Source: Streptomyces sp. NBC_00775 (lineage in GTDB: Bacteria > Actinomycetota > Actinomycetes > Streptomycetales > Streptomycetaceae). Taken from it: a DNA stretch of 64,000 nucleotides. Each line of letters begins with the position of its first letter. The stretch's first letter is position 1. Position numbers and translations under genes: made by a program. The DNA is taken from the NCBI RefSeq assembly GCF_036347135.1, contig NZ_CP108938.1:5208001-5272000 (forward strand), written 5' to 3'. The notes beneath the pieces are model-generated. The model searched no databases and was not told where the DNA came from. It saw nothing but the letters and a program-made list of their open reading frames with translations. Shown here piece by piece: positions 30,512 through 39,518 of the stretch.

Positions 30512-30755
30512 GGTCGCCGCCCGCGCCCCCACGCCACCCACGCCGGGGCGCCGCGCGCTCCTTTCCTCTCCCTTTTACTCCTCCTTTCCTCCTCCTTTTC
30601 CACCCCAACAAGCAACCCCTGCACAGCTTTCACTCGTCTCACAGGATGCTCACAGATTCGGCCTCAGGGCGCGTGGGGTGTGCCCGTACCGTCGGCCGGT
30701 CCTGGGCTGTCCAGTCAGCTGCCGCTTGACCACGGCACTCGCAGACGAGGAACCG

Positions 30756-32429
30756 ATGACCAGTCAGCAACACCGCAGCCGCTTACAGCGTTCGGCGTTC
30801 GCCGCAGGGGCCGCGCTCACCGTCTTCTTCGCCGGAACCGGGGCCGCTCCAGGAGCTGGGGCGGCCCCGGCCGGCACGGCCGGGAAGCCGAAGCTCAAGC
30901 TCATCGCCGCGTCGAACTCCGTCACGCTCGACCGCTGGGAGGGGGAGCCCGGGGTCTACCTCGACCTGGGTACGTATGTCACGGTCGACGGTGCGCCCTT
31001 CGAGATGAAGGTGACCCGGAAGTCGTACAAGGACCCTGTCGTCGCCAAGCAGATCCTGCGCAACGGAAGCGGTACGCGGACCAGGACACTGCCCGCCGGG
31101 CTGCTGAAGGACTTCTCCGGCCTGCCCGGCTTCCTCCGGGTGTCGATCAAGAACGCGGCCGGTACGGAGGTGGCGAAGAGCAAGGGGACCTTCTGCCCGA
31201 ACAACGCCTCCGGCCGGATCCGTCCGGACGCACCGGCGACGTCGAAGTACCCGGAGAGCTGCTCCACCAACCCGTTCACACTGGGCTCGGTGTGGGGGGT
31301 CGAGAAGGGCTGGGCGTCCAACTCCAGCACGGTCGACTACGACAAGCCGGTGGACCTGCCGGCGGGCGAGTACACCGCCAAGGTCTCGGTCGCGAAGAAG
31401 TACCGTGACCTGTTCGGCATCCCCAATGACCAGCCGACCATCAAGGTGACGGTTCGGCAGGTCAGCAACGGGGGCGGGGAGGGAATGGCCTCCTCCTCGC
31501 CGCACTCCTCCGCACATCACAGCGGTGGGCATGGCGCGCACTCCGCCGCCCACCACTACGGTCCCCGTGGCGCCGACGCGCCCACCCCGCCCGCCCTGTC
31601 GCACGCCCTCGAAGACCGGGGCATGGCGCACCACCTGGGTGACGGCCCCGGGCACACCGACGGCTCGCGCATCGCGCCCGCGCTGAAGCCCCACACCCAG
31701 CGGCCCACCGGCCGGGCCGGCGTCCCGGCGAACGTGCCCAAGCCGGACCTGCGTTCGCTGCCCGCCTGGGGCATCGCCATCACCGACGGCGAGGACGGTG
31801 ACGTACCGGGCAAGGACTATCTCGCCTTCAGCGCCAACGTCTGGAACGCCGGTCCCGCCCCCCTCGTCGTGGACGGTTTCCGCAGCCCCGGCAAGGAACT
31901 GATGGACTCCTACCAGTACTTCTACGACGCCAACGGCAAGCAGGTCGGGTACACGCCCAGCGGCACCATGGAGTGGGACCCGCGGGAGGGCCACGAGCAC
32001 TGGCACTTCACCGACTTCGCGAGCTACCGGCTGCTGAGCGCGGACCAGAGCACGCAGGTGCGCAGCGGCAAGGAGGCGTTCTGCCTGGCCAACACCGACG
32101 CGATCGACTACACGGTGAAGAACGCCAACTGGCACCCGTACAACACCGATCTGTCGACCGCCTGCGGTGAGCAGAACTCGATCTCCGTGCGTGAGGTCCT
32201 CGACGTCGGCTCCGGCGACACGTACACCCAGTACCGTCCGGGCCAGTCCTTCGACATCACCGGCCTGCCGAACGGCACGTACTACATCCAGGTGATCGCC
32301 AACCCCGAGAAGCGGCTCCAGGAGACCAGCCTCAGCAACAACGTCTCGCTGCGCAAGGTCGTCCTGGGCGGTACGCCGGACGCCCGCACGGTGACCGTGC
32401 CACCGTACGACCTGATCAACACCCCGTAG
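30756..32429 (+). CDS. Secreted lysyl-oxidase-like copper protein
   Basis: 557 residues from ATG 30756 (GAGGA six bases upstream). A signal peptide is followed by an N-terminal beta-rich region to ~245 (KLKLIAASNSVTLDRWEGEP). A His/Ser-rich linker spans ~250-310 (SAHHSGGHGAHSAAHHYGP). The lysyl-oxidase domain spans ~345-540: AFSANVWNAGPAPLVVDGFR, the copper-binding EGHEHWHFTDF, FCLANTDAIDY and YIQVIANPEKRLQETSLSNN. Lysyl oxidases turn peptidyl-lysine into aldehydes using copper and a tyrosine-derived cofactor; bacterial members are little studied. The His-rich linker may help load copper. The stop is followed by a strong terminator. Confidence 0.88.
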   Translation: MTSQQHRSRLQRSAFAAGAALTVFFAGTGAAPGAGAAPAGTAGKPKLKLIAASNSVTLDRWEGEPGVYLDLGTYVTVDGAPFEMKVTRKSYKDPVVAKQILRNGSGTRTRTLPAGLLKDFSGLPGFLRVSIKNAAGTEVAKSKGTFCPNNASGRIRPDAPATSKYPESCSTNPFTLGSVWGVEKGWASNSSTVDYDKPVDLPAGEYTAKVSVAKKYRDLFGIPNDQPTIKVTVRQVSNGGGEGMASSSPHSSAHHSGGHGAHSAAHHYGPRGADAPTPPALSHALEDRGMAHHLGDGPGHTDGSRIAPALKPHTQRPTGRAGVPANVPKPDLRSLPAWGIAITDGEDGDVPGKDYLAFSANVWNAGPAPLVVDGFRSPGKELMDSYQYFYDANGKQVGYTPSGTMEWDPREGHEHWHFTDFASYRLLSADQSTQVRSGKEAFCLANTDAIDYTVKNANWHPYNTDLSTACGEQNSISVREVLDVGSGDTYTQYRPGQSFDITGLPNGTYYIQVIANPEKRLQETSLSNNVSLRKVVLGGTPDARTVTVPPYDLINTP

Positions 32430-32530: not shown

Positions 32531-34003
32531 TCAGAGGCTGCCGGTCACCGAGGTGCCGAGGATGGTGCCGGAGACGCCGGTCAGGGCCTTGGAGTTGGCG
32601 TCGTCCCACGAGCCGCTGCTGTGGCGGATGGTGTGGAGGAGCTTGCCGTCGTCGGTGACGAAGGTGGCCTGGAGTTCGCCGTCGACCCTCGCGGCACCCA
32701 CCGAGTTGATGGTCAGGCCCGAACCGAGGACGCCGGAGAGGCTGTTGAAGGTGTCCCAGGTGCCGTCGGAGTGGCGGATGGTGTGCACCTGCTTGGCGCC
32801 GGAGTTGCTGATCACGATCATCTGGAGCTCACCGTCGACACCGGCGACGCTGACGTCCGTCGGGGTGCCGGAGTCGCCGGCCTTGCCCTCGACGTTGCCC
32901 CAGGAGCTCCACGTGCCGTCGCTGCTGCGGATGGCGTGGCGCACGGTGCCGGGGACGACGACCGCGACCTGGAGTGCGCCGCCGACGGAGGCGATGGACA
33001 CCTGGCTCGCCACTCCCGCGTCGCCGGTCTGGGAGTAGACGCTGCCCCAGTCCTGCCAGCTGCCGTCCTCGTGCCGGATGGTGTGGTAGAGCTTGCCGTT
33101 CGATACGGCCACGACGTGCAGTTCCGTGCCGATGGACACGGCGGAGATGTCGGTGATGTTGGTCAGCTGCCCGGCGACGTGCTCGACGCTGCGGAACGGC
33201 GACCAGTCGCCGTTGTCGTAGCGGATGGCGTGGTAGAGGGTGTCGTCGGTGCCGACCGCCAGCACGTGGGTGTCGTCGCTGACCGCGGCGTCCGCGACGG
33301 CCCGGATGTTGCCGATGCTGCCGGTCTGGCCTTCGACGTTGCCGAAGGTGGTCCAGCTTCCGTCGTCCTTGCGGATGGCGTGGTAGACGTTGCTGCTGGT
33401 GTTGACCAGGGTCTGCAGCTTCCAGGACGCGGCCGGGGTGGCGGGGGCGTCAGCGGTGATGTTGTTGTAGCGGAGGGCCTTGTAGTTGTAGTACGGGAGG
33501 CCCGCGATGTTGCCGCTGTCGATGTCCGCCGTGCCGTACGCCATGTCTATGTCGGGGTTCGCCTCCTGGTAGAACTTGAAGGTTCCCGCCGTCTTGTCGA
33601 TCCACTTCACGAAGAGAACGACGTGCCCGTCCGACACATCGTCGAGCGCGTCTCCTGGCAGCAGGTCTCTCTTGTCCGAGAGCGTGGTGGACACGGCCGA
33701 GTCGTCGAGCGTCGACGTGGTGCGGCTGCTGGTGAGGTGCCACGCCATCGAGACGAAGCCGGAGCAGTCCTGTCGGTAGGTGTGATCGCCGTCCACGTCA
33801 CTGGTGTACGAGGTCTGGCTGTACTGCACGTTGCGGTCGTACCAGTTCTTGGCACGGGAGATGACCTCCGTGCGGGAGATGTCCCCGCCCTGGGTCGAGG
33901 CGGCCGAAGCCTGCGTCGGCAGCACCAGGCCGGTGAGGGCGACAGCGGAGAGCACGGGGAAGAGAACGAGGGCGCGACGGGTGCTCTTGGCGAGTGCGGA
34001 CAT
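32531..34003 (-). CDS. Secreted NlpC/P60-like amidase with seven-repeat lectin-like propeller
   Basis: 490 residues. Signal peptide to about TQASAAST. Residues ~40-190 resemble an amidase or NlpC/P60 cysteine-hydrolase domain: AKNWYDRNVQYSQTSY, YRQDCSGFVSMAWHL with the catalytic Cys, and SDGHVVLFVKW with the His. The remaining ~290 residues are about seven repeats of ~43 residues, each with a core like LYHTIRHEDGSWQDWGSV, as in PLL/tachylectin-like propellers that bind sugars. It probably cuts or modifies a surface polymer or peptide while held by the lectin. AGGAGT lies before ATG 34003. A 15-bp palindrome (CAGGGCT-C-AGCCCTG) lies at 34025-34039. A 24-aa peptide gene lies upstream on the same strand. 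Confidence 0.88.
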   Translation of the reverse strand: MSALAKSTRRALVLFPVLSAVALTGLVLPTQASAASTQGGDISRTEVISRAKNWYDRNVQYSQTSYTSDVDGDHTYRQDCSGFVSMAWHLTSSRTTSTLDDSAVSTTLSDKRDLLPGDALDDVSDGHVVLFVKWIDKTAGTFKFYQEANPDIDMAYGTADIDSGNIAGLPYYNYKALRYNNITADAPATPAASWKLQTLVNTSSNVYHAIRKDDGSWTTFGNVEGQTGSIGNIRAVADAAVSDDTHVLAVGTDDTLYHAIRYDNGDWSPFRSVEHVAGQLTNITDISAVSIGTELHVVAVSNGKLYHTIRHEDGSWQDWGSVYSQTGDAGVASQVSIASVGGALQVAVVVPGTVRHAIRSSDGTWSSWGNVEGKAGDSGTPTDVSVAGVDGELQMIVISNSGAKQVHTIRHSDGTWDTFNSLSGVLGSGLTINSVGAARVDGELQATFVTDDGKLLHTIRHSSGSWDDANSKALTGVSGTILGTSVTGSL

Positions 34004-34175: not shown

Positions 34176-34215
34176 TTCGGACTACTGCCACATCATTCGG
34201 ACTACTGCCAGATCA
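34176..34215 (-). repeat. 20-bp tandem duplication over the stop of the small peptide gene
   Basis: TTCGGACTACTGCCACATCA (34176-34195) and TTCGGACTACTGCCAGATCA (34196-34215) are adjacent and differ at one base. On the minus strand each unit codes M-(I/M)-W-Q-stop, so the end of the 24-aa peptide plus its stop codon has been copied directly downstream. Confidence 0.85.
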
Positions 34216-34276
34216 TGTCGTCCAGGATGAAGATGAAGGGGACCGCGGCGGTCTGGGCGAACTGGATGCTGGTCAT
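34202..34276 (-). CDS. Small hydrophobic peptide (24 aa), candidate signal or precursor peptide
   Basis: ATG 34276 to TAG, 24 residues. The sequence begins MTSIQFAQTAAVP and ends FIFILDDMIWQ: a polar start, a short hydrophobic run, two aspartates and a tryptophan one residue before the end. AGGAAGG sits about nine bases upstream, so the frame is not merely open but equipped for translation. Too short for most gene finders. It lies between a 96-aa gene and the secreted amidase-lectin gene, on the same strand as both, with a TrmB/LuxR-type regulator diverging upstream. A C-terminal Trp in a mini-peptide recalls prenylated or secreted pheromones, but no modifying enzyme is adjacent. Function is inference only. 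Confidence 0.55.
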   Translation of the reverse strand: MTSIQFAQTAAVPFIFILDDMIWQ

Positions 34277-34532
34277 GGCGAGAGCCCTTCCTGAGGCGTG
34301 AAGACGAAGCGTGGAGACGAGGGACTGAACCGGCCCGTGTCCCGCGGTGACGCGGTGCCGGTGGTGCCCGCCGGGGGTGTTCCCTGCTGGCGATGCCTAG
34401 CTTCGTCGCAGCTCAACTGGGGTGGAAGGGCTTTCGGTTGGCCCCAAAGGGCCTTGGCCCATTCGGTCCAGCGAGGGCCTCAGGGGCCCACAAGTCCCGC
34501 TGGGTTCGGCGTGGTTGCGATGGCCGCAGAGA

Positions 34533-34568
34533 TCACAGCGGTCACAGTGGTCACAGCGGTCACAGGAA
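34533..34568. repeat. 9-bp tandem repeat TCACAG(C/T)GG
   Basis: Units at 34533-34541, 34542-34550, 34551-34559 and a partial fourth at 34560. The repeat runs into the stop codon of the 96-aa gene and extends into the gap before the peptide gene. Evenly spaced short direct repeats could be a binding array or replication slippage. Confidence 0.6.
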
Positions 34569-34850
34569 CGGGGCGATCAGGGGAACCTGAGCCGAGACCA
34601 GCCGCCACTGGCGCAGCGACGGACATCGCGCGAGCGCGCGTCGGCACGCCAGATCGGCGTGCCGTTCCGCCTCGTCCAGGTCGGCGGCGAGGAGGAAGAG
34701 ACCGAGTACGGGGTGCGGGCTCGCGCCGGGGTGCGCGCTGACGTGCTCCAGGCGGTCCTGCGGCTCGGCGTGTGTCAGCACGAGCTGTGCCGTGTGCTCG
34801 GGTAGCGCCTGGCCAGGGGGGCCCTTCAATTGGACGTGGACGAGATACAT
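34560..34850 (-). CDS. Hypothetical 96-aa protein divergent from the TrmB/LuxR-like regulator
   Basis: 96 residues from ATG 34850. It begins MYLVHVQLKGPPGQALPEHT, has AQLVLTHAEPQDRLEHVSAH and then PHPVLGLFLLAADLDEAERH, ending in RQWRLVSAQVPL. The pattern (strand, strand, helix, strand, helix, strand) suggests a ferredoxin-like or small sensor fold. I recall similar proteins encoded beside this kind of regulator but no named family. It is divergent from the regulator at 35004 across 153 bp and upstream of the 24-aa peptide on the same strand. No convincing ribosome site is seen, so it may be leaderless. Confidence 0.72.
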   Translation of the reverse strand: MYLVHVQLKGPPGQALPEHTAQLVLTHAEPQDRLEHVSAHPGASPHPVLGLFLLAADLDEAERHADLACRRALARCPSLRQWRLVSAQVPLIAPFL

Positions 34851-34942
34851 ATGACCACCGTCCCAAGCCCTAACACCTGTGAGCACCCTGTGGCCCTGGT
34901 CATTGTGGTCCTTGGCCGGAAGCGTCCTCGCTGCCGAAAGCC

Positions 34943-34976
34943 ATTGCCTGGGCAATTACTTGTGAGTGATGATCAC
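34943..34976. promoter_or_regulatory. Two palindromes in the divergent promoter of the regulator / 96-aa gene pair
   Basis: ATTGCC-TG-GGCAAT (34943-34956) and GTGAT-G-ATCAC (34966-34976) are both perfect inverted repeats lying within 60 bp of the regulator start. They are candidate operators for autoregulation and for control of the divergent 96-aa gene. Confidence 0.6.
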
Positions 34977-35003
34977 GGCGTATGTCCACGAGGGGGGCCT
35001 CAT

Positions 35004-36053
35004 ATGCTGACTTTGCTCGGCCTGGACGCGGATGCCGAAGCCGTTTACCGGGCGATGCTGGCGCATCCCGATGACGGGCTGACGGCTCTTTGCGGACGGC
35101 TGGGTATCGCCGAAGTGACCGGCCGCCGTGCTCTGGACCAGCTCAGCGAACTCGCCCTGCTGCGGCCTTCGCACGAGCTGGGCCGCGGACTCCAGGCGGT
35201 CAGCCCGGACGTCGGCATGGAACTCCTGCTCGCCCGTCAGCAGGCGGAACTCGCCGCCCATCAGCAGCGCATCGAGGAATCCCGCGCCGCCGCCGCGCAG
35301 CTCATCGCCGAATACGCCGACTCACGGTCCGCCCCCAGCCCCGGAGTCGAGCAGCTCACCGGCCTCGACCAGATCAGGGACCGGCTGACCACCCTCACCC
35401 GCGAGGTGCGCACCGAGGTGATGACCTTCGCCCCGGACGGCGAGCACACCCGGGGGAGCATCGAGGCCGCGCGGCCTCTGAATGAGCAACTGCTGGGCCG
35501 CGGCGTGCGGTTGCGCACCATCTACCTCGACAGTGTCCGCAACAGTCCGCACACCGCGGAGTACGTCGACTGGCTCGCCGCGCAGGGCGGACAGGTGCGT
35601 ACGGTGCCGACCCTGCCCATCCGGATGATCATCGTCGACCGGGCCACAGCCGTCATCCCCACCCGCAGCGACGACACGGCGGCCGGCGCGGTCCTGCTCA
35701 CCGGCGACGGCACCCTCACCGCGCTCTGCGCGCTCTTCGAGACCACCTGGGCCACCGCCGAGCCCTTCGGGAACGCGGTTCCACGCGACCCTCAGGGGCT
35801 CACCGGCTCCGAGGCCACCACCCTGCGGCTGCTCGCCGAGGGGCACACCGACGAAGCGATCGCCAAGCGCCTGGGCGTCTCCCACCGCACCGCCCGGCGC
35901 ATAGCCACCGGGCTCATGGAGCGGCTCAACGCGCGTAGCCGTTTCGAGGCCGGCGTTCGCGCCGTGCAGCAGGGCTGGTTGCCGGCTGTCGCCCCCGTCA
36001 CCCCCGTCGCCCCCGTCGCCCCCTCGACAGGATCAGACACGCCAGGGGTATGA
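35004..36053 (+). CDS. TrmB/LuxR-type transcriptional regulator
   Basis: 349 residues from ATG 35004 (GAGGGGGG eight bases upstream). Residues ~1-75 resemble a TrmB/MarR winged helix (LTLLGLDADAEAVYRAMLAH, then LCGRLGIAEVTGRRALDQL). A coiled stretch (LLLARQQAELAAHQQRIEES) follows, then a TrmB-type effector or PLD-like domain ~115-260 (VRTEVMTFAPDGEHTRG, MIIVDRATAVIP). The C-terminus is a LuxR/GerE helix-turn-helix (LTGSEATTLRLLAEGHTDEA, then KRLGVSHRTARRIATGLMER). Having two DNA-binding ends is characteristic of a Streptomyces group often next to small peptide or secondary-metabolite genes. The tail has 9-bp-encoded V-A-P repeats. Its likely targets are the divergent 96-aa gene and the peptide/amidase genes. 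Confidence 0.85.
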   Translation: MLTLLGLDADAEAVYRAMLAHPDDGLTALCGRLGIAEVTGRRALDQLSELALLRPSHELGRGLQAVSPDVGMELLLARQQAELAAHQQRIEESRAAAAQLIAEYADSRSAPSPGVEQLTGLDQIRDRLTTLTREVRTEVMTFAPDGEHTRGSIEAARPLNEQLLGRGVRLRTIYLDSVRNSPHTAEYVDWLAAQGGQVRTVPTLPIRMIIVDRATAVIPTRSDDTAAGAVLLTGDGTLTALCALFETTWATAEPFGNAVPRDPQGLTGSEATTLRLLAEGHTDEAIAKRLGVSHRTARRIATGLMERLNARSRFEAGVRAVQQGWLPAVAPVTPVAPVAPSTGSDTPGV

Positions 36054-36115: not shown

Positions 36116-36385
36116 TCAGCCCGCTCCCTTCCGGGTCCGGCGCCGGGGCCTGAACCGCCCGCGGCCGCCGTCGCGGTGATCACGACGGTCATCGGTGCCG
36201 CTCGGTCCGGCCGGGCCGCCCGCCTTCCACGGAACCGACGGCGCCGGTCCCTGCGCGGGTGTCCGGGAGCGGTCGTAGTGGAAGGCGGCGATGCGTTCAC
36301 TGTGCTGCGCGTTGAGCAGGTGGATGAGGAGCACGCCGAGAGCGATCATCACCAGGGGCAGGACCACGGCCAGGACGGTCTCCAT
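36116..36385 (-). CDS. Small single-pass membrane protein, copy A
   Basis: 89 residues from ATG 36385, with GGGAGG eight bases upstream. An N-terminal transmembrane helix (METVLAVVLPLVMIALGVLL) is followed by IHLLNAQHSERIAAFHYDRS and a basic, disordered tail. It begins six bases after the DUF5994 stop; a GTG at 36394 would even overlap that stop. The gene at 37810 is a clear relative (IHRLDARHAERI), also directly after a DUF5994 gene, so the pair DUF5994 plus this protein is a repeated unit. Confidence 0.8.
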   Translation of the reverse strand: METVLAVVLPLVMIALGVLLIHLLNAQHSERIAAFHYDRSRTPAQGPAPSVPWKAGGPAGPSGTDDRRDHRDGGRGRFRPRRRTRKGAG

Positions 36386-36390
36386 GGTCC

Positions 36391-37014
36391 TCACCTCCCC
36401 CGCGTCCGCCGCGGAGCCGCGGCGGCCGGCTCGCGGGCCTCATGTCCTCCTTCGGAGGCCCAGACCTCCTCCACGGCCAGGTCGGTCTCCGCCACCGTCC
36501 GCAGACGCGCGGCCTCCGCCATCAACCGGCTCGCGGTCGACGTGCCCAGTGGGTCGCTCGCGGCGGCCATCAGCCAGGCGGCCGAGGCCGGAGGCGTCTG
36601 CGGCGGGACCACCAGCAGGTTCCAGCGGCCCACGTGGTACGAGAGCAGCATCAGCTCGTGCGGGTCCTGCTCGGCCCGGAACCAGCCCACCTTCACCACA
36701 TGCCCGGCGACGGGCACCTTGCGCGGGACGACCGGCCAGTGGACGGGATTCACGGTGACCCTGGTGATCCGCCCCCACAACGGATCGAGCACCGCCGTCA
36801 GTGCGGGGAGTTCCGCCCCGAGATCGCGGGACCGCGGCCACCAGGCGCCGTCCAGGAGAGCCGGTGCGGAACCGGCGGGAGCCAGCGACAGGCGGAGAGC
36901 GGAGGAAGCGGGAGACGAAGGGGAGGAGGAAGGGGAAGAGGAAGGGGAAGAGGAGGGGGAAGAGGAGGGCGGCCGGTCTTCGAGGGGCGGCGGGAGGGAG
37001 ATGGTCGCAGTCAT
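36391..37014 (-). CDS. DUF5994 family protein, copy A
   Basis: 207 residues from ATG 37014. After a low-complexity SSSP-repeat stretch (coded by 12-bp repeats at about 36919-36966) comes the DUF5994 core: ALLDGAWWPRSRDLGAEL, DPLWGRITRVTVNPVHWP, VVKVGWFRAEQDPHELMLLS and RWNLLVVPPQTPPASAAWLM. The family is widespread in Streptomyces and uncharacterised; the tryptophan-rich core recalls small ligand or nucleic-acid sensors, but that is a guess. Copy B at 37333 is divergent and shares an inverted leader. The small membrane protein gene follows six bases downstream. Confidence 0.88.
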   Translation of the reverse strand: MTATISLPPPLEDRPPSSSPSSSPSSSPSSSPSSPASSALRLSLAPAGSAPALLDGAWWPRSRDLGAELPALTAVLDPLWGRITRVTVNPVHWPVVPRKVPVAGHVVKVGWFRAEQDPHELMLLSYHVGRWNLLVVPPQTPPASAAWLMAAASDPLGTSTASRLMAEAARLRTVAETDLAVEEVWASEGGHEAREPAAAAPRRTRGR

Positions 37015-37109
37015 GACGCGGACCCTGCCCCGGGCCGACGGCAACCGGCCCGGCGTATTGAATCGCCGAAAACGACACGAGCGTGGCAGCCGGTGCGCGA
37101 AATATCCTC
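37015..37109 (-). promoter_or_regulatory. Conserved leader element, copy A
   Basis: Read on the minus strand from 37109 down to the ATG at 37014. It begins GAGGATATTTCGCGCACCGG, continues through TGTCGTTTTCGGCGA and is 95 bases long. It aligns along much of its length with the leaders at 37233-37332 and 39878-39968. The frame shift relative to copy B suggests it acts as DNA or RNA, not as coding sequence. Confidence 0.65.
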
Positions 37110-37232
37110 GGTACTTGGAGCGTACTCCTCGGACGACCGAACGAACCGTGGCGCCGGCGACCGCCCCCATCCTTCGAATCGGCGCCTCGCCAGGGTCCGT
37201 TCGGCAGGGCGGGAGAGTAGCGTGGAGCCATC

Positions 37233-37332
37233 GAGGGTATTTCGCACACCGGCAGCCATGCCTGTGTCGTTCTCGGCGAGTGACGACACCGGGCCGCAGC
37301 CGGCGGGCGTGGCCGGGAGACAGGTTCGCGCG
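37233..37332 (+). promoter_or_regulatory. Conserved leader element, copy B
   Basis: It begins GAGGGTATTTCGCACACCGG and passes through TGTCGTTCTCGGCGA and ACGACACCGGG to the ATG at 37333, 100 bases in all. GGGTAT resembles a SigB-type -10 (GGGTAT/C). With copy A it makes a large diverged inverted repeat between the two DUF5994 operons. Confidence 0.65.
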
Positions 37333-37806
37333 ATGTCCGCGACCACCGACCATCCCCCACTGCGGATCGTGCCCTTCAGGGCTCCGACCGCTCGCCTCGC
37401 GCTGAAGCCCGCGAGTACGCCCCGCGGACTCCTGGACGGCGCCTGGTGGCCCCGCTCCCGGGACCTGGCACACGAACTCTCCGCTCTGGCCGATGTACTG
37501 GATCCCCTGTGGGGACGGATCACCCGGATCGCCGTCAACCCTCAGCACTGGCCGGCCATACCGCCCAGGCTGGCGGTCAACGGACATGTGGTGAAGGTCG
37601 GTTGGTTCGCGCGGGAGCTTGACCCGAACGAGATCCTGCTGCTGTCCTACACCGCCGGGCGCTGGGACCTGCTGGTGATCCCGCCGGAGACCGGCGCCCC
37701 GGCGGCCGCCCGGCTGATGGCCGTCGCGAGCGAGAGTTCCGGCCCCCGGGCGACCGCGAGCGCGCTCCTGGAGGCGGAACAAGCCCTCGTGCTCGCGGGG
37801 GTGTGA
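37333..37806 (+). CDS. DUF5994 family protein, copy B
   Basis: 157 residues from ATG 37333. Core: GLLDGAWWPRSRDLAHEL, DPLWGRITRIAVNPQHWP, VVKVGWFARELDPNEILL, RWDLLVIPPETGAPAAARLM. It is about two-thirds identical to copy A over the core but lacks the SSSP stretch. An in-frame ATG at 37258 would add 25 residues, but that stretch is the conserved leader, which is out of frame in copy A, so the downstream ATG is preferred. The small membrane protein gene follows after three bases. Confidence 0.85.
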   Translation: MSATTDHPPLRIVPFRAPTARLALKPASTPRGLLDGAWWPRSRDLAHELSALADVLDPLWGRITRIAVNPQHWPAIPPRLAVNGHVVKVGWFARELDPNEILLLSYTAGRWDLLVIPPETGAPAAARLMAVASESSGPRATASALLEAEQALVLAGV

Positions 37807-37809
37807 GCC

Positions 37810-37992
37810 ATGGTCACCGGCATGGCCTTCAGTGCTCTGCTGATCCTGGCCGTCGCGGCAGCCCGAGTGATCCACCGGCTCGACGCGCGGCACGCGGAGC
37901 GCATCACTCTCTCCTCGTACGCAAGCCCGTCGAACGAGTCGCACCGCAGCCTGTCGAGCGAGCGGAAGCACCCCGGGCCGGCCCGAATGTGA
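37810..37992 (+). CDS. Small single-pass membrane protein, copy B
   Basis: 60 residues from ATG 37810, three bases after the DUF5994 copy B stop. An N-terminal membrane helix (MAFSALLILAVAAARVI) is followed by IHRLDARHAERITLSSYASP and a short polar tail. The block I-H-x-L-(N/D)-A-x-H-x-E-R-I is shared with copy A at 36116, which shows they are paralogues. A role with DUF5994 at the membrane is inferred from the repeated pairing. Confidence 0.75.
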   Translation: MVTGMAFSALLILAVAAARVIHRLDARHAERITLSSYASPSNESHRSLSSERKHPGPARM

Positions 37993-38032
37993 CGGGAGAC
38001 AGGGCCCAGGGCCTCCGTACATCGGCACCCGG

Positions 38033-38431
38033 TCAGGTGTCGCCTCCCGCCGCGGCGGCCATGAGCGGCTCGGCGGTGCTCCGCGGGGTGCCGGGCGGTA
38101 CGACCAGCAGGTCCCACCTGCCCCGGCTGGGGGCGAGCAGGCAGACCGTGTGCGGGGCGGACGCGGCGGTGGACCTGCTCAGGCGCACGACCTGGTTGAA
38201 GACGAGCATCCGGCCGGGTGTCGCGGCCCACGTCGCCCCGTTGACCGTGACGCTGCTGATGTGACCCCAGGCCCTCGGCAGTCCGGCGAGCAGCCGCGGG
38301 AGTTCCGCGAGCAGGTCGTACGAGTGGGGCCACCACGCACCGTCGATAGGGTGCGGCAGGCCGCCACGGGGTGCGAGACGCAGGCGGAGGAGGGGATGCG
38401 AGGGGAGCGAGGGCTGCAGTGCGGTGGTCAT
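38033..38431 (-). CDS. DUF5994 family protein, copy C
   Basis: 132 residues from ATG 38431 (AGGAG about six bases upstream). Core: PHPIDGAWWPHSYDLLAELP, RAWGHISSVTVNGATWAA, MLVFNQVVRLSR and RWDLLVVPPGTPRSTAEPLM. It is closer to copy D at 55865 than to copies A and B. It is the last gene of a minus-strand run (88-aa gene, desaturase, DUF5994) and has no small membrane protein partner. Confidence 0.87.
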   Translation of the reverse strand: MTTALQPSLPSHPLLRLRLAPRGGLPHPIDGAWWPHSYDLLAELPRLLAGLPRAWGHISSVTVNGATWAATPGRMLVFNQVVRLSRSTAASAPHTVCLLAPSRGRWDLLVVPPGTPRSTAEPLMAAAAGGDT

Positions 38432-38492
38432 GCGGTCTCCTGTGGACTGCCGTACGGAGAGTGCGAGGGAAAGCGAAGGGGCCGGCCCGGGC

Positions 38493-39518
38493 TCAGACGC
38501 GGCGGGCGGCGACCCGGTCCGGCGTCGGCCAGCGCACGTCGGACACCCAGCCGAGGCGTTCGAGGAGACGGATGACGGCGGCGGAGGGGTCGAGCTGACC
38601 GCGGTCGACGCCGTGCCGGGCGCTGGTGGGGTCGGCGTGGTGGAGGTTGTGCCAGCTCTCGCCGAAGGAGAGCAGAGCCAGCGGCCACAGGTTGGTGGCA
38701 CGGTCGTACCGCCGGGTGTGGAAGGGGCGCTCACCGATCATGTGGCACAGCGAGTTCACGCTCCACGTCACATGGTGGAGCAGCGCGATGCGCACAACTC
38801 CCGCCCACAGCAGGGCGGTCAGGGCGCGCTGCCACGTACCGCCGATGGCCCAGCCCGCCGCGAACGGCAGCACGAGCGTGAGGGCGCACAGTGCCGGGAA
38901 GGCGCGGGAGACGGCACGGATGTCGCGGTCGGCGAGCAGGTCGGGGGCGTAACGCTGGGCGGGCGTCGGGTCGTTGCGGAAGAGCCAGCCGACGTGCGCG
39001 TGCAGCAGCCCGCGCAACTGGCCGCGCAGGTGCGTGCCGTAGCGGTACGGGGAGTGCGGGTCGCCGGGCCGGTCGGTGAAGGCATGGTGGCGGCGGTGGG
39101 TGGCGACCCAGCCGATGACGTCGCCCTGGAAGCTCATCGACCCGGCCACCGCCAGTGCGACGCGTACGGGACGGATCGCGCGGTAGCCGCCGTGGGTGAG
39201 CCCGCGGTGGAAGCCGACGGTGACGCCGAGGCCGGTGACCGTGTAGAGGACGAGGGCGAGCAGGATGTCGGCGGGGTGGATGAGACTCCCCCACAGCAGC
39301 CAGCCGGCCAGGCCGAGCGCCAGGAAGGGGGCGACGACGATCACCGCCGTCACGGTCACGTAGAGCCGCCCGCCGCTGCCGCGCGGGGCCGCCGGTTCAT
39401 CGACGGGGAACGGCCCCACTCCGTCGTATCCGAGGGACGGCTGGGCAGCGCTCGACGGTACGACCACTGAAGGGCGTTCGGCCTCGGACGTGGTGGAACT
39501 GGGCGTCATGGACGACAT
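38493..39518 (-). CDS. Acyl-CoA/acyl-lipid fatty acid desaturase
   Basis: 341 residues. Stearoyl-CoA desaturase-type histidine boxes: HRGLTH, WVATHRRHHAFTD and ESWHNLHHADP, with paired membrane helices (VTVTAVIVVAPFLALGLAGW, ADILLALVLYTVTGLG, and a later pair). These di-iron membrane enzymes place a cis double bond in acyl chains, usually at carbon 9, adjusting membrane fluidity. AAGGAG precedes ATG 39518. It sits between the 88-aa gene (92 bp upstream) and DUF5994 copy C (61 bp downstream) on one strand, so a cold- or stress-response operon driven by the conserved leader at 39878-39968 is plausible. Confidence 0.93.
   Translation of the reverse strand: MSSMTPSSTTSEAERPSVVVPSSAAQPSLGYDGVGPFPVDEPAAPRGSGGRLYVTVTAVIVVAPFLALGLAGWLLWGSLIHPADILLALVLYTVTGLGVTVGFHRGLTHGGYRAIRPVRVALAVAGSMSFQGDVIGWVATHRRHHAFTDRPGDPHSPYRYGTHLRGQLRGLLHAHVGWLFRNDPTPAQRYAPDLLADRDIRAVSRAFPALCALTLVLPFAAGWAIGGTWQRALTALLWAGVVRIALLHHVTWSVNSLCHMIGERPFHTRRYDRATNLWPLALLSFGESWHNLHHADPTSARHGVDRGQLDPSAAVIRLLERLGWVSDVRWPTPDRVAARRV

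Follow-up and report, generated by a model that had tools for sequence, protein, structure and literature searches.

What does a peptide of only 24 residues do between two larger genes, and what reads it if it is a signal? The question is raised by a locus in the 64,000-nucleotide stretch of Streptomyces sp. NBC_00775 DNA analysed here (contig NZ_CP108938.1, positions 5,208,001 to 5,272,000; hereafter the window), in which a 24-codon frame lies between the gene for a 96-residue protein (p96) and that for a 490-residue secreted protein, with the gene for a 349-residue regulator diverging upstream. An earlier note on this DNA had proposed that the peptide is a signal, or the precursor of a ribosomally synthesized and post-translationally modified peptide (RiPP), processed or sensed by its neighbours. 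Comparison of related loci revealed a conserved regulator-precursor pair, multi-copy precursors, covariation between peptide and regulator, and a shared operator-like DNA block. We consider it quite probable that these constitute a peptide-pheromone system with an intracellular receptor, in which the signal would be secreted and re-imported.

The locus and its regulator

34202..34276, minus strand: peptide precursor of 24 residues, MTSIQFAQTAAVPFIFILDDMIWQ (ATG, 24 codons, TAG stop; C-terminal motif)
34205..34219, minus strand: predicted signal core D-M-I-W-Q, the last five codons (C-terminal motif conserved in the family; covaries with the regulator)
34176..34215, minus strand: 20-nucleotide tandem repeat (95 percent) spanning the peptide's last codons and stop, with its second copy after the stop
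35004..36053, plus strand: regulator and putative receptor of 349 residues (TrmB-like winged helix-turn-helix, 1-66; helix, 68-107; PLD-like domain, 112-255; LuxR-type helix-turn-helix, 262-326)
34560..34850, minus strand: p96, a ferredoxin-like protein of 96 residues (beta-alpha-beta-beta-alpha-beta) and frequent partner (frame, survey of loci, structure model)
32531..34003, minus strand: secreted protein of 490 residues, a possible output gene (NlpC/P60-like N-terminus by motif; CV39L-type lectin half)

The 24-codon frame, whose placement and own AGGAAGG ribosome site (9 bases 5' of the ATG) are as the earlier note described them, is near certain to be a genuine gene. Among the 64 frames of 18-100 codons in the window that are preceded by a ribosome site, it alone ends in D/N-x-x-W-Q/G, and a DMIWQ coding sequence occurs once in the 11.1-Mb genome when all synonymous codons are allowed. 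The earlier note mentioned neither the tandem repeat across the peptide stop nor the conservation of the DNA 5' of the peptide gene (see below).

The diverging regulator does carry the two helix-turn-helix (HTH) domains first ascribed to it. Its C-terminal LuxR HTH matched Pfam GerE (E 4.6e-07, above the cut-off) and NarL, QscR and RhlR-type proteins, and its N-terminal winged helix was seen in a structure model. Residues 1-256 of the model form a winged helix, a connecting helix and a PLD-like domain, as in the TrmB/TrmBL2 structures 5bpd, 5box, 3qph and 2f5t; the region 112-255 is alpha/beta and matches PLD folds. Pfam searches of the regulator found neither a tetratricopeptide repeat (TPR), the ligand-domain feature of RRNPP receptors, nor an autoinducer-binding domain, the corresponding region aligning instead to PLD folds. 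Regulators of the window's clade are 331-349 residues long.

A family of precursors with tryptophan near the end

The peptide belongs to a large family, apparently not described before, whose members are short, probably secreted and carry a tryptophan (W) near the end. A regulator scan of genome contigs produced 46 loci, mostly from Streptomyces, with others from Kitasatospora, Streptacidiphilus, Actinacidiphila and a few further genera. The small frame usual in these loci lies downstream of p96 on the same strand, starts with a basic hydrophobic leader and ends in DMIWQ, DAGWQ, DMGWQ, DMSWQ, NMIWG or the like; precursors at this place beside the regulator's relatives share the ending x-x-x-W-[QGDETS] (e.g. 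DMIWQ, DAGWQ, NMIWG, TTVWE, SINWD, VIGWD). The earlier note had staked its reading on peptide frames occurring in relatives with the same regulator, and these were found. The regulator was present at E 1e-70 or better in 57 of 150 genomes of the genus, and 104 of 197 genomes from the order had it at E 1e-50, a second family included. Beside distant regulators (40-62 percent identity) the precursors carried other cores, namely TTVWE x4, SINWD x2-4, VIGWD x3-5, DLPWT x3, DSGWQ x2 and x4, DPGWQ and DPGWS x2, and GFSWG x1.

Chance was controlled by a blind scan that accepted frames of 18-120 residues with a ribosome site, K/R near the start, a hydrophobic stretch and a W within the last three residues. 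It covered 114 non-redundant regulators, after removal of duplicates, regulator fragments and loci with <1300 bases upstream. A leader-bearing, W-ending open reading frame (ORF) was found on the divergent strand upstream of the regulator at 70 of the 114 loci, compared with 3/114 on the opposite strand of the same DNA and 8/500 in distant 1.2-kb regions. Positives were distributed by regulator identity as 38/45 (>=60 percent), 9/17 (50-60), 23/51 (40-50) and 0/1 (below). Of 97 leader-bearing candidate ORFs, 65 percent had the W at position -2, versus 8 percent of 107 controls. When a hidden Markov model (HMM) of the precursor was run against the 150 genus genomes, the nine best matches (E 6.6e-6 or better) all adjoined a regulator; the tenth did not, and weaker ones were mostly leaders of longer frames. 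A regulator was present in 10 of the first 30 HMM-match loci (L088-L117).

A curated precursor was assigned at 82 of 117 non-redundant loci, ten of the 82 being entered by hand. Lengths ranged from 20 to 107 residues (median 57.5). The short hydrophobic form singled out earlier is real in the window and unusual in the family, as 74 of the 82 precursors have 38-107 residues; the eight shorter ones include those of the window, L023, L042 and L025. An AXA-like site was located at residues 16-40 in 79/82 (a loose pattern), and a four-residue core was repeated 2-5 times in 29/82. After residue 20, the whole set has a single W outside the cores. The motif tolerates C-terminal extensions (WGH, WTR, WTK, WGG, WGS). 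One genome, G431, holds seven regulator paralogues, six of which have a readable core; these cores fall into five types: TTVWE, DMGWQ, DSGWQ, SINWD (twice) and NLNWD.

Some variants of this arrangement were also seen. In the second family of the order (L249, L252, L253), endings include CGACWE, CAGCWS and TMGWQVTCQ, whose cysteines could form a disulfide. Locus L049 (3978-6100) is rearranged, with a regulator of 58 percent identity, p96 downstream on the same strand rather than divergent, and then a small frame ending PGWQR. The window's own genome contains a row of four distant regulator paralogues (28-33 percent, partial matches) about 110 kb before the window (L118, 5,095-5,099 kb), and no W-ending precursor was seen at this row.

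Covariation between peptide and regulator

35424..35528, plus strand: covarying segment, residues 141-175 of the PLD-like domain (positions 142, 145, 148, 149, 152, 160, 163, 172 and 175)

Covariation was analysed in 108 non-redundant regulator-peptide pairs; loci without a readable core were left out, and the five-letter cores of 26 loci were read by eye. Divergence of the motif and of the regulator were correlated (Mantel r 0.62, 0/2000 permutations). After correction for distance, the strongest links with the peptide fell on columns T149 (for the residue after W, r 0.54), N160 (for W-3, the third residue before W, 0.49) and H148 (for W-1, 0.46). The PLD-like domain makes up 140 of the 313 columns yet supplied 9-17 of the top 20 per peptide position.

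The clearest pattern involved W-3. Where the peptide has D at W-3, residue 160 of the regulator is N in 59/66 pairs, and where it has N, S, T, V, G or A, residue 160 is D in all 42. On a tree built without residues 136-180, residue 160 changed in eight of nine independent D/non-D contrasts (seven N/D and one T/D, with L154/L169 unchanged) and in 2/32 same-state pairs, which placed it first of the tested columns (p 4e-6; next column p 0.005). Close contrasts include DMIWQ/N160 (L013) versus NMIWQ/D160 (L051) and DMIWG/N160 (L015) versus NMIWG/D160 (L014). The two best columns for W-1 were S152 (17/19 versus 7/30, p 5.7e-6) and H148 (13/19 versus 4/30, p 1.2e-4). For the residue after W, Q accompanies T149 in 50/57 pairs and D accompanies S149 in 16/16.

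We take the W-3 and W-1 pattern in these alignments to mean that the PLD-like domain recognises the peptide directly; at W+1 and W-2 the pattern is suggestive of the same. The D/N exchange between W-3 and residue 160 fits the removal of a like-charge repulsion. It is likely, and we hold this with good confidence, that the peptide is recognised by the neighbouring regulator. The idea of a mini-peptide signal read by the adjacent regulator thus gains support from the conserved pairing, the multi-copy precursors and the receptor-peptide covariation.

Operator-like DNA and other elements

34439..34459, minus strand: operator-like block GGCCAAGGCCCTTTGGGGCCA (consensus GTCCAAGGCCCTTTCCGTCCA), within the DNA best conserved between genomes (promoter alignment, matrix)
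34397..34412, minus strand: conserved promoter-like segment GCTGCGACGAAGCTAG (promoter alignment)
34337..34353, minus strand: inverted repeat GCGTC-ACCGCGG-GACAC between promoter and start, one pair broken here (orthologue consensus GCGTC ACCGCGG GACGC)
34896..34927 (approximate, by eye), no strand assigned: further operator-like block, weaker than the first, in the divergent promoter of regulator and p96
34943..34956, no strand assigned: inverted repeat ATTGCC-TG-GGCAAT, perfect arms around two bases (by eye), not conserved in relatives
34966..34976, no strand assigned: perfect palindrome GTGATGATCAC, with its TGATGATC part conserved upstream of the regulator in relatives

When 1 kb of the locus was compared with 392 genomes, the stretch just 5' of the peptide gene (window 34316-34480) gave the best matches, at up to 83 percent. 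An alignment of 42 promoters resolved this region into the GTCCAAGGCCCTTTCCGTCCA block, a GCGACGAAGCTAG segment and the inverted repeat GCGTC-ACCGCGG-GACGC, the last with paired changes in several loci (by eye). An operator matrix learnt from the peptide promoters, to which 29 of the 42 contributed sites, exceeded the 95th percentile of controls in 49/55 regulator/p96 intergenic regions; the window's own regulator/p96 region scored 6.0 (95th percentile of window tiles, 4.0). No matrix site was found at the 490-residue protein gene. Autoregulation of the circuit is plausible because the matrix scores both at the peptide promoter and in the regulator/p96 regions.

Two perfect palindromes had been noted between regulator and p96. 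GTGATGATCAC is perfect, whereas ATTGCC-TG-GGCAAT is perfect only in its arms around two bases (our palindrome script admitted a centre of 0-1 base only), and relatives conserve nothing of either except the TGATGATC part. They are weak evidence, since mononucleotide shuffles lead one to expect 0.35 palindromes with arms of at least five. Separately, a 13-nucleotide inverted repeat (92 percent, 34279-34291 / 34424-34436) pairs the peptide's ribosome-site region with a CTTCC-containing promoter stretch; it could hide the ribosome site in the RNA, or could be chance.

Neighbouring genes

The ferredoxin-like fold of p96 was modelled with high confidence (pLDDT 94). Its gene was present in 41 of 44 loci (the window and 43 others), divergent from the regulator in 40, and p96 relatives were found at 114/157 loci, all on the precursor strand and within -1.5 to +0.2 kb.

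The 490-residue protein had been described as NlpC/P60-like with a sugar-binding propeller. Its second half matches the CV39L lectin (E 1.9e-12), below the cut-off (46.9 bits versus 350). NlpC/P60 had no Pfam match at E 0.1, and the PDB match to a C40 peptidase reached just E 0.45, so the name rests on a Cys/His motif that we take to be of the NlpC/P60 type. Eight proteins encoded beside the window's relatives were scanned and comprised transglycosylase-like/FG-GAP, CHAP/FG-GAP, tachylectin, Rv2525c-like and DUF6528 types. Apart from the regulator, p96, the precursor and such secreted lectin or wall-type proteins, no protein cluster occurred in more than seven of the 44 loci within ~5 kb. Ten larger neighbourhoods from other subfamilies, inspected by eye, had a secreted protein just downstream in three (L256, L260, L265), an ABC-type protein in L258 and synthetase-like genes in L262. 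The secreted lectin or amidase-type protein, which the earlier note cast as a processing enzyme, recurs downstream in too few of these neighbourhoods (3/10) for that role and looks more like an output.

Several further features were observed. At L262 (7380-13982; the same place as L137), a DSGWQ-type pair adjoins genes resembling a specialised-metabolite cluster (adenylation, carrier, asparagine-synthase-like; by eye). In the window, a lysyl-oxidase domain protein (30678-32429; PF01186, E 2.2e-11) is convergent with the 490-residue lectin protein. A small gene (VKVGWF...LLSY..GRW.LLVVPP type) is present in three diverged copies at 36116-38734, in both orientations and two of them with short hydrophobic partners, which by eye suggests a local gene-family expansion. 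A fatty-acid-desaturase-like frame (by eye) occupies 38493-39518 on the minus strand.

Proposed circuit and its alternatives

In the circuit we propose, the precursor (34202-34276) would be translated and, in most family members, exported by a Sec-type leader. Proteases would free a C-terminal peptide of ~5-6 residues (here DMIWQ or DDMIWQ), in many relatives as several copies per precursor. The peptide would re-enter the cell, probably by an oligopeptide permease; import is possible because SBP_bac_5 was matched 21 times in the genome, twice within a single frame. Inside, it is predicted to be bound by the TrmB/LuxR-type regulator (35004-36053) in a pocket of its PLD-like domain, with W-3 recognised by residue 160, W-1 by residues 148/152 and the residue after W by residue 149. 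The regulator may then bind two related DNA sites, the GTCCA...GTCCA-type block 5' of the peptide gene and its counterpart between regulator and p96, which would give autoregulation, and the circuit could switch secreted wall-active or lectin proteins (here perhaps the 490-residue protein) with density or confinement. Maturation, export, re-import, binding, the sign of regulation, the outputs and the role of p96 are all inferred. Secretion appears likely for the family and uncertain for the window's short copy.

A number of results weigh against this interpretation. Seven of the 108 pairs violate the residue 160 rule (L021, L028, L156, L159, L166, L168, L169). When the contrast test was run over all residue types at W-3, V318 of the LuxR HTH came first (p 9e-4) and residue 160 fell outside the top eight; for the residue after W, R94 in the helix came first (p 2.8e-4), above S152 and T149 (p 1.2e-3). 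The class with D after W is largely one clade, so that no column shows a stronger association with it than some outside the PLD-like domain (S48, I300). Furthermore, p is inflated for every column, because the average distance is greater in differing pairs than in same-state ones. Core codons are nearly invariant under a GC-rich codon bias, leaving a test of synonymous change uninformative. At the DNA level, the window's peptide promoter scored 23.5 but was possibly in the training set, and three unrelated 170-base window tiles outscored the regulator/p96 region. No precursor was recognised at 35/117 non-redundant loci, and the precursor HMM had no match in G000, so it overlooks the window's own short peptide. 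The window's precursor keeps a hydrophobic run and lacks an ordinary Sec leader, and the 20-21 residue forms of L023 and L042 lack even the hydrophobic stretch, so that export is not obvious for the short forms. Lastly, the locus showed no linked gene for transport or for a protease.

The alternative that survives best concerns the window copy and is compatible with a pheromone function of the family. The 24-residue form could be a decayed precursor that is no longer secreted, its working regulator hearing a neighbour's DMIWQ. The missing leader and spacer, the 20-nucleotide tandem duplication at the stop and the lack of any other DMIWQ coding sequence in the genome would suit such decay, yet the copy has kept its frame, ribosome site, core and conserved promoter DNA intact, and other short forms exist (L023, L042, L025); we regard decay as possible but doubtful.

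That the peptide acts without leader-dependent export is unlikely. It would then be an intracellular micro-peptide modulating the adjacent regulator as co-inducer or anti-activator, or would leave the cell without a leader in the manner of LCP/RopB. Covariation demonstrates recognition and not route, and the forms in the window (24 residues) and in L023 and L042 (20-21 residues) have no usual leader. However, 70/114 loci were positive in the blind scan although a leader-like start (K/R, hydrophobic stretch) was required, AXA-like sites recur in 79/82 curated precursors under the loose pattern, and repeated cores with spacers (29/82) suit extracellular cutting.

We find it improbable that the product is a secreted bioactive peptide (RiPP-like, antimicrobial, or an effector of wall or enzymes) whose gene is merely regulated by a neighbour sensing something else. 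Repeated cores are known also in some RiPP precursors, and secreted proteins of wall-active or lectin type are often encoded beside the window's relatives. Against this, no modification enzyme or exporter was shared by more than 7/44 loci, and covariation with ligand-domain residues is unexpected if the peptide gene were a mere target. The RiPP precursor first offered as an option consequently finds little footing, the ten larger neighbourhoods differing from one another, though unlinked enzymes could still serve. Least credible is a nascent-chain arrest leader (SecM/MifM/TnaC-like) in which ribosomes would stall at W-Q-stop and thereby control the secreted protein encoded downstream, for despite conserved residues at the stop codon, many Sec-like leaders and a next gene often secreted in the window's relatives, identical internal copies in 29/82 precursors would stall early, C-terminal extensions are tolerated, downstream genes vary between subfamilies and the covariation is with the regulator.

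Relation to known systems

The pheromone system proposed here would work like RRNPP and ComRS. As in RRNPP systems (Rap-Phr, PlcR-PapR, PrgX, Rgg-SHP), a small propeptide gene neighbours an intracellular HTH regulator; here the two genes are divergent, often with p96 between them, and thus not always directly adjacent. The likeness extends to the proposed route of cleavage, export and re-import, to peptides and receptors that change as pairs, and to some genomes holding more than one such pair. According to an excerpt of one article, RRNPP receptors carry TPRs and the systems were described from Firmicutes (PMC10075063). The present receptors instead combine a PLD-like ligand domain with a LuxR HTH, occur in Streptomyces and relatives, and are paired with precursors that are often multi-copy. 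The system is not an RRNPP member, because a TPR was looked for in the regulator and is absent.

ComS-type signals are C-terminal and contain tryptophan. The ComRS/XIP and Rgg-SHP systems of streptococci, and LCP-RopB as presented in part of PMC10518010, share short precursors with the present family, and the window's 24-residue form is of similar size; they differ in receptor fold and phylum, and most members here are longer, leader-bearing and often repeated. Like the archaeal regulators TrmB and TrmBL2, the regulator in our model has an N-terminal winged HTH, a helix and a PLD-like domain. The sugar site of TrmB lies in its C-terminal part. TrmB binds sugars, as the title of structure 2f5t states; unlike TrmB, the regulator here has a LuxR HTH after the PLD-like domain, and its covarying positions are in the PLD-like core. 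To judge by this covariation, the pattern points to a peptide and not a sugar as the putative ligand. A LuxR-type HTH at the C-terminus is shared with acyl-homoserine lactone receptors and LuxR solos, from which the present ligand domain differs in matching PLD folds. In Streptomyces coelicolor, part of PMC11303876 describes an extracellular signalling oligopeptide taken up by the ABC oligopeptide transporter BldK; no link was found between that BldK-imported signal and the tryptophan-peptide family. By analogy with yeast alpha-factor, the peptides here would often be cut from multi-copy precursors.

No description of the regulator-peptide pair was found in the open-licence literature, so its novelty is provisional. 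Among the matches listed, the 44 peptide homologues were named hypothetical protein or unnamed, with one UniRef label of 5'-nucleotidase, and the best 120 of 1030 regulator names were helix-turn-helix, LuxR C-terminal or TrmB with few odd labels. Two database names look wrong, namely '5'-nucleotidase' for precursor P0009 and 'erythropoiesis-stimulating protein' for regulator P0100.

Implications

Signals of the Actinomycetota are typically enzyme-made small molecules in the account given in one part of PMC10075063, and gamma-butyrolactones and cyclic or modified peptides are the signals named in a portion of a 2016 review (PMC4748050). The W-ending peptides described here are probably private chemical messages of these soil bacteria. 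The balance of evidence tilts towards a broader view, in which Streptomyces and its relatives would communicate through a large and so far undescribed class of gene-encoded peptide pheromones. These would often be released from multi-copy precursors, and each would have its own TrmB/PLD/LuxR-type receptor. Several private channels would run side by side in some strains (five core types in one genome), and the code would be readable as W-3/160, W-1/148+152 and W+1/149. Because a receptor and its signal are jointly predictable from sequence, each prediction is testable with a five-residue synthetic peptide. If this is true, the PLD-like domain becomes a peptide receptor, and a plain gene-encoded peptide code would be a new, easily programmable handle on wall remodelling in Streptomyces, one that would extend to specialised metabolism where, as judged by eye at L262, the pair adjoins biosynthetic genes.

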